Source: Salinisphaera hydrothermalis C41B8
Lineage (GTDB): Bacteria > Pseudomonadota > Gammaproteobacteria > Nevskiales > Salinisphaeraceae
DNA length: 64,000 bases
Reading direction: 5' to 3'
NCBI RefSeq assembly: GCF_000732535.1
Contig: NZ_APNK01000003.1
Span: 62,001-126,000 of the forward strand
Each line of letters starts with the position of its first letter. The first letter of the stretch is position 1. Under the pieces are notes generated by a model. The model was not told the origin of the DNA and did no database searches. It saw only the letters and a list, made by a program, of their open reading frames with translations. Positions 429-46,076 of the stretch are shown one piece after another. Both the position numbers and the translations under genes were made by a program.

Positions 429-635
429 CTAGGGTCTGTTGAGGTTTCGTGCGAGTCCGCGCCAAGCGCTGTTTTGCGGCAAGACGAGACGTAGCGAACG
501 TGGCGTAGTGGATCTACGCGAGAGAGCGACAACGCTGTATTGCCGCCTCACGGGCACGGGCCCTGCGGGTGAGGCCCGCCCACGGCGCCAAGCGGCGTTG
601 CATGCGGTGGCGTCTCTCGTGACGACACGCCCTAG
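429..635 (-). repeat. MITE-like palindromic repeat, shortened copy A
   Basis: Positions 429-548 match, in reverse orientation, about 120 bp of the right half of the copy at 12557-12830: the terminal CTAGGGTCTGTTGAGG, the 'GCGCCAAGCGCTG' block and the inner 'GTAGCGAACG' region. Beyond 548 the similarity decays, apart from a GGCGTTGC patch and the last bases ACACGCCCTAG at 625-635, which restore the opposite terminus. The far-end CTAG supplies the TAG stop codon (632-634) of the exonuclease gene. No coding capacity is seen. Confidence 0.7.
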
Positions 636-15021: not shown

Positions 15022-15054
15022 CTCGCGCTCGCACGAAACCTCAACAGCCCCTAG
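15022..15054 (-). repeat. MITE-like repeat end fragment D
   Basis: CTCGCGCTCGCACGAAACCT continues into CAACAGCCCCTAG, matching the right terminus of copies B and C. Only the end is left, 20 bp after the TSUP stop. Confidence 0.6.
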
Positions 15055-40077: not shown

Positions 40078-40109
40078 TTAGGGCCTGTTGCCGTTTCGTG
40101 CGAGTCCGT
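40078..40109 (+). repeat. MITE-like repeat end fragment E
   Basis: TTAGGGCCTGTTGCCGTTTC continuing to GTGCGAGTCCGT matches the termini of copies A and C. No partner end is found nearby, so it is a truncated remnant upstream of the SDR gene. Confidence 0.55.
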
Positions 40110-43810: not shown

Positions 43811-44084
43811 TTAGGGCCTGTTGATGTTTCGTACGAGCGCCGCGTTGGCGTCCGCAAATAGTGTCCTGCAAGGCGTGAGTCGCCGCGTCGTGGCGTGCCA
43901 CGACCCAGACTTGCAACGCCGCAGGGCGCAATTTGCGGCCCAACCCTTCGGGACAAGCGCTGTTTTGCGGCAATCCAGCGTTCTAGCACGCTTGTGCAGA
44001 GTGACTGCACGGCGCGCACTACGCCTCGTCTTGCCGCAAAACAGCGCTTGGCGCGGACTCGTACGAAACATCAGCAGGCCCTAA
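43811..44084 (+). repeat. MITE-like palindromic repeat, full copy C (274 bp)
   Basis: It starts TTAGGGCCTGTTGATGTTTC and ends with the reverse complement apart from one base, a 27-bp near-perfect terminal inverted repeat. The inner 19-bp repeat (AAGCGCTGTTTTGCGG...) is at 43955-43973 and 44031-44049. Length and layout are identical to copy B, but bases in the outer arms differ from copy B in matched pairs. One end gives the TAG stop of tctB (44081-44083); the other lies 13 bp before the tartrate dehydratase start, next to its ribosome binding site. Confidence 0.8.
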
Positions 44085-44575
44085 AACAGCGAGCCGAACA
44101 CCGACGGATCGGGTAGCGGCACCTGGAACACGTATTTGAAGATGAAGTAGAAACCCAGCACTACGATCACGCCGGACGCGGGATAAAGGCATAGCCGCAT
44201 CAACGTCCAGCGCTCGTACATCGCGATCGCCATGATCGCGATGTAGGCCACGAGCACGGCGATGACGAAGCCGAGATACGGCATGGCCAGGGTGGCGGCG
44301 ATCATGACCACGATCAGCAGTACACGCCGGGTGACCGAGCCGGGCGAGCCGGCCGGCTCGGGCGAGGCGTAGCCCAGCAGATTCCTCAGGATGAGCAGGG
44401 CACTGAAGACCACCATCAACCCGATGACGGTCTGCGGGAACACCGACGCCTGCGGCGAAGGCGTCTGGCTGATATCCCACCAACACACGCCGCCGATCGC
44501 GACGAAAATCAAGGCGCCGATGGTCCCCCGCAGGTCACGGGTGTCGCGCGAGGTTTGCTTAGAGACTGCGGGCAT
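44081..44575 (-). CDS. tctB: TTT transporter small membrane subunit (TctB)
   Basis: A 164-residue four-helix membrane protein, the small subunit of a tripartite tricarboxylate-type transporter. Helices are visible near 17-37 ('TIGALIFVAIGGVCWWDI'), 47-65, 85-120 and 135-155. Two ATGs in a row are available; AAGGAG lies 7 bases before the second (44575), which I use. It overlaps tctA by 17 bp. Its TAG stop is contributed by the end of repeat copy C, so the C-terminus may have been altered by that insertion. In SlcHFG-type sulfolactate transporters the same three subunits occur. Confidence 0.8.
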   Translation of the reverse strand: MPAVSKQTSRDTRDLRGTIGALIFVAIGGVCWWDISQTPSPQASVFPQTVIGLMVVFSALLILRNLLGYASPEPAGSPGSVTRRVLLIVVMIAATLAMPYLGFVIAVLVAYIAIMAIAMYERWTLMRLCLYPASGVIVVLGFYFIFKYVFQVPLPDPSVFGSLF

Positions 44576-46076
44576 CATCGGACTCCTTGGCACCCCGGGT
44601 GAGACGACCGGCGATGATCGGGTAGAACAGCGAGGCCAGGATCAACACGAAAATCCCGATCGCGAGTGGCCCGGAGAAAAAGATCGACAACGGGTCGCCG
44701 GTGGCGCCGCCGATCATCCAGCCCTGGACGAAGCCCTGTTCGGCGATCGGGCCGAGGATCAGGCCGAGCACGATCGGCGACGGCTGGAAGCCCAGACGCT
44801 CGAGCACCCAGCCCACGATACCCAGCACGATCATCACCATGACGTCCGAGATCGAATTATTGATCGCATAGGTGCCGATGATGGTCATGAAAGCCACGAT
44901 CGGCACCAACACCGCCTTGGGGAAAGTCACGATCGACTTGAAGGCATAGCGGCCGATCAGCAGGCCGATGGGCAGCATCAGAATCGTGGCGATGAACAGC
45001 CCGTAGATGAAGGTATAGACGATCGAGCTGTGCCCGGAGAACATCGCCGGCCCCGGCTGGATGCCTTGCACCAGCAGCGCGCCGAGAATCACCGCATCCG
45101 GCGGTGTGCCCGGGATGCCGAGCACCAACGTAGGCACCATGCCGCCGCCGACCGTCGCGTTGTTGGCCGATTCGCTGGCCTGGATACCACGCGGTTCGCC
45201 CTTACCGAAGCGCTCGGGCGTTTTCGAAGCACGGCGTGCCTCGGAATACGACACCAGCCCGGAAATCGACCCGCCGGCGCCCGGCAGAATACCCACGAAC
45301 GCCCCGATCAACGAAGAGCGGATCAGGTTGATCCCACCGGAAAAACACAGCCGGATCGCCTCGGGCAGCCGAAAGCCACGTGAGGCCTCCTGGATTTCCA
45401 GATGACGCTCCGGCCGGGCTACCAGATTGATGAGCACGGGAATGCAGTACAACCCGATCAGCCCGGAGACGACATCGATCCCGCCGAGCAACGTGGTCGA
45501 ATCGAAGGTGAAGCGCGGACTGCCGGAGATCGGCGCCACGCCCACACAGGACAGCAGCAGACCGAAGCTCGCGCCGATCAGCCCCTTCAGCAGAGCACCG
45601 GACGAGATCGCCGAGATCAGGGTCAGGCCGAAGATCGCCAGCCAGAAGTATTCGACCGGCCCGAACGCGAGCGCCACATTCGCCAGCGGCGGCGCCAGGA
45701 ACAGCAGTACGGCCGCGCCCACCAGCCCACCGAATACGCTGGACAGACAGGCGATGGTGACGGCCAGGTCGCCATCGCCGCGCTTGGCCATCGGATAGCC
45801 GTCGAAAGTGGTGGCGATCGCCGAGGGCGTGCCCGGCGTATTCAGCAGGATGGCTGCATAGGCCCCGCCATAGATCGCCCCCGTGTAGATCGCCCCCATC
45901 AGCAGCAGTGCCGTGGTCGGATCCATCGAAAACGTCAGCGGAACCAGCACGGCGATCGCCATGGTGGCCGTCAGGCCGGGGATGGCACCCAGAATGGTGC
46001 CAGCGGCCACGCCGAGCACGGCCAGGGCCAAGTGCAGTGGCGTCAACGCGGCCAAGATGTCGTTGATATGACTCAT
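44559..46076 (-). CDS. tctA: TTT transporter large membrane subunit (TctA)
   Basis: A 505-residue protein with about 12 helices, the main transport subunit of a tripartite tricarboxylate-type transporter. Family motifs include 'GAIPGLTATMAIAVLVPLTF' near 30-49, 'YGGAYAAILLNTPGTPSAIATTFDGYPMAK' region near 68-97 and the second-half copies 'GAFVGILPGAGGSISGLVSY' and 'VLGIPGTPPDAVILGALL'. The ATG at 46076 is used; a GTG two codons upstream is possible. With tctC and tctB it would import a C3-C6 dicarboxylate or tricarboxylate, or a sulfonated analogue such as sulfolactate, judging from the neighbours. Confidence 0.9.
   Translation of the reverse strand: MSHINDILAALTPLHLALAVLGVAAGTILGAIPGLTATMAIAVLVPLTFSMDPTTALLLMGAIYTGAIYGGAYAAILLNTPGTPSAIATTFDGYPMAKRGDGDLAVTIACLSSVFGGLVGAAVLLFLAPPLANVALAFGPVEYFWLAIFGLTLISAISSGALLKGLIGASFGLLLSCVGVAPISGSPRFTFDSTTLLGGIDVVSGLIGLYCIPVLINLVARPERHLEIQEASRGFRLPEAIRLCFSGGINLIRSSLIGAFVGILPGAGGSISGLVSYSEARRASKTPERFGKGEPRGIQASESANNATVGGGMVPTLVLGIPGTPPDAVILGALLVQGIQPGPAMFSGHSSIVYTFIYGLFIATILMLPIGLLIGRYAFKSIVTFPKAVLVPIVAFMTIIGTYAINNSISDVMVMIVLGIVGWVLERLGFQPSPIVLGLILGPIAEQGFVQGWMIGGATGDPLSIFFSGPLAIGIFVLILASLFYPIIAGRLTRGAKESDDARSL

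Follow-up and report, generated by a model that had tools for sequence, protein, structure and literature searches.

The window, a 64,000-nucleotide stretch of the genome of Salinisphaera hydrothermalis C41B8, contains two full copies (B and C) of a 272-bp foldback repeat, which the data below identify as a MITE, together with a shorter mosaic relative and two solo end fragments. The features are as follows, with copy C divided into its parts (IS, insertion sequence).

430 to 634, plus strand: mosaic relative, 205 bp; left end of the TAGGGTCTGTTGAGG type and right end of the TAGGGCGTGTCGTC type, resembling a broken IS on contig C6
12558 to 12829, plus strand: MITE copy B, 272 bp, CG..AGG ends, target CTAG
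15025 to 15053, minus strand: solo end fragment, TAGGGGCTGTTGAGG
40078 to 40108, plus strand: solo end fragment, TAGGGCCTGTTGCCG
43812 to 44083, plus strand: MITE copy C, 272 bp from TA to TA; with the flanking T and A, target YTAR
43812 to 43837, plus strand: left terminal inverted repeat of copy C, CC..ATG type; its first 19-20 nt are the counterpart of the IS terminal repeat
43812 to 43845, unstranded: 5' side of the copy C outer stem, 32 bp with partner 44051-44083 in the single-sequence fold
43846 to 43942, unstranded: inner hairpin 1 of copy C, from fold and covariation
43944 to 43952, unstranded: mini hairpin CCC-TTC-GGG of copy C, within a conserved central motif
43954 to 44050, unstranded: inner hairpin 2 of copy C, approximately the reverse complement of hairpin 1 (72-75% over about 97 nt)
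44058 to 44083, minus strand: right terminal inverted repeat of copy C, CC..ATG type with one T to C change

The arms of copy C (43811-43837 and 44058-44084) are 27 nt long, 96% complementary and 220 nt apart; the first base of arms delimited in this way (C in copy B, T in copy C) is the target base and lies outside the element. Copy B ends in TAGGGCGTGTTGAGG on both arms, and copy C in TAGGGCCTGTTGATG on one arm and TAGGGCCTGCTGATG on the other, with GTACGAG present in both. The initial annotation described the same base changes on both arms of copies B and C, and we find them there, apart from the first base and from the place of GTACGAG, where the arms of copy B are themselves mismatched (GTCCGAG vs. 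GCGCGAG). The end pattern occurs seven times in the window with at most one mismatch, compared with 0.10 occurrences expected from shuffles; the repeat pattern described for copies B and C is thus correct and far from chance. In the mosaic at 430-634 the interior is rearranged between its two unlike end types. Putative frames running through copy C reach at most 87 aa. Copy C is adjoined by a 170-aa minus-strand frame (44081-44593) that ends at the element's own TAG (44081-44083) and that may be a tctB-like gene.

Both copies are predicted to be almost fully paired, with fold energies of -178.6 (copy C) and -176.3 kcal/mol (copy B). The median over 183 extracted rows, which include four second readings of a copy, is -173.5 kcal/mol, compared with a shuffle mean of -112 (15 shuffles per row; median z of -12). 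The three-way junction with two inner hairpins that had been proposed for the fold stands as a prediction, to which a 3-bp mini hairpin between the two arms is added.

Copy number, spread and a partner insertion sequence

When copy C was used as the query against its own genome (4.28 Mb, 91 contigs), at least 53 matches were obtained, at least 40 of them near full length among the best 40 of 156 candidates scored; the remaining matches were arm or hairpin self-matches or fragments. At least 58 full-length, well-aligned copies are present in this genome, no two of which have both flanks in common. The element is thus short (272 bp) and dispersed and contains no transposase gene, as is characteristic of MITEs. 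Two of the copies, L005 on contig C40 and L013 on contig C15, have one flank in common and the other not, a pattern like that left by recombination at the element or by duplication of a segment there. Matches were found in 14 of 14 genomes searched in the genus, those in genome G006 being weak only. Among the matches listed, a 20-nt core is held by at least 78 stretches, and the named contigs are nearly all Salinisphaera; the three odd names are 'Endozoicomonas' G2_2, Lysobacterales SP48 and one MAG labelled Christensenella (L195, DBWI01000008.1). In other genomes of the order, 19 of 47 gave a match at E ≤0.001, many of them weak or partial (best 12 candidates scored per genome). Four plasmid records (Azotobacter, Halomonas and Pseudomonas aeruginosa) hold an element with the same predicted architecture, one of them without the right end, while no phage record matched an order-level copy. 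With the best 40 candidates scored per genome (12 for the order genomes), the copy set is a lower bound. A filter on identity to copy B (>75%) and on gap number (no more than 12) removed 11 of 183 rows, four of them reverse readings of retained copies, and left 172.

The own genome also carries two 864-bp insertion sequences with TAGGGCGTGTTGAGGTTTC at both ends. The 267-aa protein of one of them matches NF033580 at 257.7 bits, above the curated cut-off of 110, as well as Pfam DUF4096 and DDE_Tnp_1, and is therefore an IS5-family DDE transposase; the second TAGGGCGTGTTGAGGTTTC-ended copy has an internal stop codon. A third IS copy, also with a stop, ends in TAGGGTCTGTTGAGG and TAGGACGTGTTGAGG. 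Going by its size, the 864-bp IS is a putative member of the IS427 group. The MITE ends are the first 19-20 bp of this IS, so that the two have their terminal repeats in common. Indeed, 36 of the 58 own-genome MITEs are of the CG..AGG type, like the two IS copies, and 9 of 58 are TC..AGG, like one end of the third; the MITE end types overlap. Elsewhere in the genus, IS ends are TAGGGCGTGTTGCCG in genomes G006 and G008, while the 864-bp IS of G010 has one AGG and one ATG end and an IS fragment in G010 likewise has an ATG end, the end type of copy C.

G010 is the telling case, because here pairing is lost where the IS itself has unlike ends. AGG|ATG MITEs make up 5 of 16 copies in G010 vs. 1 of 156 elsewhere (p=2e-5), and MITEs with ends of unlike type 12 of 16 vs. 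19 of 156 (p=2e-7). With both the IS and many of the MITEs unlike-ended in this genome, end matching follows the transposase ends and not pairing itself. The compensatory change that had been read as a sign of selection must accordingly be divided: pairing is kept by matched changes (see below), but the end changes that distinguish B from C are end types common to IS5-family insertion sequences. G008 provides a counter-example, as its sole MITE in the set (CC..AGG) is unlike its IS (CG..CCG). Moreover, the NF033580 search gave no hit in G001, G005, G007, G011 and G013, though MITE matches are present there, hits only below the cut-off in G009, and none over the cut-off in G040 and G036; in MITE genomes of this sort the mover may be another one or may have been lost.

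C or T precedes the element (-1 base) in 165 of 172 copies and G or A follows it (+1 base) in 159 of 172, giving a YTAR target, mostly CTAG; TA is present at both ends in 115 of 172. Searches for empty sites found none, so the putative TA duplication is read from the flanks. At L105 (own-genome contig C6) the tip of a 287-bp MITE abuts that of a broken IS5-family element whose end type is different (GTCGTCACGAGA), the target bases being common to both. At L331 in G002, compared with L332 in G003, about 1.2 kb of extra DNA lies at the left tip of the MITE, probably another insertion at the same target bases.

Pairing in propagating and in resident copies

For analysis of covariation we assembled alignment A1, comprising 32 sequences: 20 Salinisphaera rows of length 266-275, chosen greedily from the 172 such that each is <90% identical to earlier picks, and 12 of 14 order-level stretches, with L411 (which has N) and L412 (truncated) excluded. 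The 12 copies, from other genera of the order, are 268-272 nt long in 11 cases and 284 nt in one. RNAalifold recovered the junction from this alignment alone (85 pairs, 51 with two-sided change), whereas on reference columns it gave a weak consensus for the 183 rows and likewise for the 172 filtered rows (59 pairs). In A1, 66 of 116 pairs show two-sided change and the covariation is 0.346, compared with 0.147 when shuffled (none of 500 shuffles reached the observed value) and 0.054-0.067 when the partners are slid, although the 116-pair structure came from folding these 32 sequences themselves, which gives the observed pairing an advantage relative to the controls. On the tree, there are 119 matched double changes on the same branch, against a null mean of 3 and a maximum of 15 in 300 nulls. 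All long stems show covariation above controls. At 32 of 110 pairs, more than one Watson-Crick type occurs, each type being present in two copies or more. That pairing is kept by matched changes, as first suggested from copies B and C, is thus borne out well beyond these two copies.

The conservation extends deep into the inner hairpins. In the order-level copies (n=12), 31-39% of the inner columns differ from copy B, yet a mean of 94.0% of inner pairs is kept; simulated independent drift from copy B retains a mean of 60.4% and a maximum of 72.3% (240 runs). The inner segments of these copies fold at -110 to -148 kcal/mol, whereas the simulated ones average -87 and go no lower than -107. Such deep inner conservation requires a force acting in the propagating lineage. 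It is not absolute: 34 copies have a one-arm 15-nt insert after position 118, forming longer subfamilies that multiplied, and eight copies in which the base of hairpin 1 is replaced have multiplied as well, so inner pairing is not strictly needed.

Copies already in place behave differently. Among the fetched stretches, 20 insertions are shared by G002 and G003, five of them with only one full flank aligned; many are old, diverged copies. They contain 182 changed pairs. From Watson-Crick pairs in G002, 70 became other mismatches, 38 became G-T and 38 became A-C; the rest comprise 29 that are G-T in G002, four matched doubles and three unmatched doubles. The four matched doubles compare with roughly 1.6 expected by chance, as estimated from rates. 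Substitution rates are 5.0% at paired sites, 6.7% at unpaired sites and 4.2% in flanks, or 313/9,733 (3.2%) in flanks when L331 and L359, whose left flanks are unalignable, are excluded; paired sites thus change slightly less than unpaired ones (p=0.013), but pairing is not kept in the manner of a structured RNA. Counting pairs that were Watson-Crick to begin with and then either changed in one arm only or became matched doubles, the matched share is 4 of 150 in resident copies, compared on the tree with 60 of 200 for the 20-bp ends (p=2e-12); the contrast with the inner hairpins on the tree (43 of 595; p=0.039) is less clear. Hence it is chiefly the propagating lineage that maintains the fold, whereas the arms of resident copies drift largely independently. 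Independent drift of the two arms, which the initial annotation had named as evidence against its reading, is therefore seen in resident copies and not in the propagating lineage.

The matched changes might instead arise by mutation alone. Template switching during replication (quasipalindrome correction) could copy changes from one arm to the other and so maintain pairing with no selection on the fold, and template switching is described for RNA genes in PMC8794818. Of the 81 branches with matched doubles, 25 have only 2-5 changes overall, and many of the doubles are transversions without a wobble intermediate, which, like the lack of an overall strand bias (next section), is what arm copying would give. 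Arm copying should, however, work in resident copies too, where matched doubles are few; the inner matched doubles are mostly isolated pairs and not tracts, and internal loops look conserved at the order level by eye. We regard this explanation as rather unlikely to suffice, while conversion between arms, one of the options originally raised, may be a mutational route for the matched changes. A further reading, that gene conversion replaced bodies between dispersed copies and left the ends in place, would give ends and bodies different histories. It accommodates the recurrence of identical matched end changes on many branches and the behavior of a tree built from inner columns only, on which matched outer doubles rise from 75 to 137 (inner hairpins, 20 and 22). 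The isolated inner matched pairs and the turnover of pairs at the order level are left unaccounted for by body conversion, and we consider it unlikely.

Strand balance and gene ends

Selection on an RNA would be a third source of pairing. Elements lying in 3' untranslated regions could fold as processing, stability or termination signals, roles which PMC10969869 and PMC2229807 report for NEMIS and ERIC. The predicted fold is very stable, the elements often lie at gene ends, and the slightly lower change at paired sites in resident copies would fit. Single-arm changes from Watson-Crick pairs on the tree led to G-T in 226 cases and to A-C in 196, and the two are equal in the shared insertions, so that strand-specific tolerance of G-U over A-C is not seen in either set. 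Within the element, G-T changes outnumber A-C changes in hairpin 1 (119 to 39), the reverse holds in hairpin 2 (55 to 84), and the outer stem has no G-T excess. The hairpin 1 excess lies at element positions 52-70 with 97-116. Much of the hairpin 2 A-C excess lies in five pairs whose changes tend in part to occur together: 22 copies have A-C at four or more of them, and 40 at any. As hairpin 2 approximates the reverse complement of hairpin 1, these mirrored excesses could be inherent in each half of the element. A plus-strand RNA, considered on the strength of frequent G-T cells in hairpin 1, was dropped, as the event counts fail for the whole element; G-T cell counts in A1 were left out, its structure having come from plus-strand energies.

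Gene ends likewise indicate no strand. We tested 142 element ends. At 72 of them the longest upstream frame reaches 100 codons or more, and in 44 of these 72 the frame is closed by the element's own terminal TAG (one third expected, p=2e-6; own genome alone, 11 of 23). Insertion at YTAG probably regenerates TAG stops. The left end closes a long gene frame in 20 of 70 cases and the right end in 24 of 72, with no side preference. Rfam returned no match in the window at gathering score, and with relaxed thresholds copy C and three order-level loci gave only miRNA hits at noise level. Overall, then, a one-strand RNA or single-stranded DNA function, which had been suggested from the arms of B and C, is not indicated, the hairpin 1 excess being the point on the other side. 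The decay of pairing in place weighs in the same direction, and we judge selection for a host RNA signal to be quite improbable.

Transposition and known foldback elements

Taken together, the shared ends, target preference, copy number, family spread, covariation and resident drift make it likely that the repeats are foldback non-autonomous elements (MITEs) moved in trans by IS5-family, IS427-like transposases, with pairing kept in the propagating lineage. That IS5-family transposases do the moving we infer from sequence. The transposase would act on about 19-20 bp at each MITE end and insert at YTAR. The matched end differences would then be end types, as mobility presumably needs both ends to be acceptable to the resident transposase; successful lineages would thus carry the end types of the local IS. 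In the propagating lineage both inner hairpins and the part of the outer stem inward of the transposase site are kept as well, and the foldback may aid propagation through DNA hairpin or cruciform formation or through host tolerance, with double changes possibly supplied by arm-to-arm template switching. Once inserted, a copy would be freed from constraint and its arms would drift largely independently. More tentatively, the whole branched foldback, and not the ends alone, may underlie mobility, its structure being selected or renewed from one arm in each round of transposition; this we regard as a possibility clearly short of an even chance. If true, an architecture of 270 nt is conserved by a MITE family in several gammaproteobacterial orders, even though decay sets in for each copy once it has inserted.

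The element is of a known kind, that of MITEs thought to be moved in trans by an IS (MITEAba12/ISAba12) and of foldback repeats (ERIC, NEMIS). Of the IS427-group elements tabulated for the Paracoccus set in PMC3281130, those considered here are 832-865 bp long with 2-bp repeats, except for one of 4. The partner IS resembles this group in its length of 864 bp, its ends of about 19 bp, its single NF033580 DDE transposase and its probable 2-bp duplication, whereas the MITE has only end sequence in common with the IS. In Acinetobacter, according to the available part of PMC6382973, MITEAba12 and ISAba12 also have only terminal repeats in common, unlike ends of the MITE match unlike ends of the IS there as well, and MITEAba12 was captured as a new insertion. 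In contrast to our MITE, MITEAba12 is 113 bp, AT-rich and flanked by 9-bp duplications, and a branched fold or covariation is not among the features reported in that part of the account. The portions of PMC10969869, PMC2229807 and PMC3049150 drawn on describe ERIC, NEMIS/Correia, RUP and BOX as foldback elements with highly paired predicted transcripts, with TA ends in ERIC, NEMIS and RUP; in pneumococcus, BOX supplies the stop codon, as the MITE does here, in 36 of 58 overlapping genes (PMC3049150). The MITE differs from these in its two long hairpins with a central mini hairpin, its basic length of 268-272 nt and its measured covariation that lapses in resident copies. In our literature search, we recognised no description of this Salinisphaera element and found no paper combining Salinisphaera and 'miniature inverted'.

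What is unusual is the combination of a branched architecture conserved across orders, covariation in every long stem and the lapse of covariation in resident copies. Covariation commonly counts as proof that an RNA is functional, and this MITE family passes such a test strongly. Yet resident copies maintain pairing little; the propagating lineage must therefore supply most of the signal, which calls for caution in RNA discovery within repeats. The family also offers a natural system in which to ask if foldback structure promotes the movement of a DDE-transposase MITE or if the arms are recopied from each other.

Two variations on the architecture were also observed. AT-rich inserts of 12-15 nt recur at element positions 118, 150 and 226 in the own genome and others; those at 118 and 150 are complementary by eye, which suggests an alternative central stem in a 299-nt subfamily. 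In G040 (L399-L407), outer-stem positions 15-28 fall into several unlike sequence types within one genome, each nonetheless matched between its arms.
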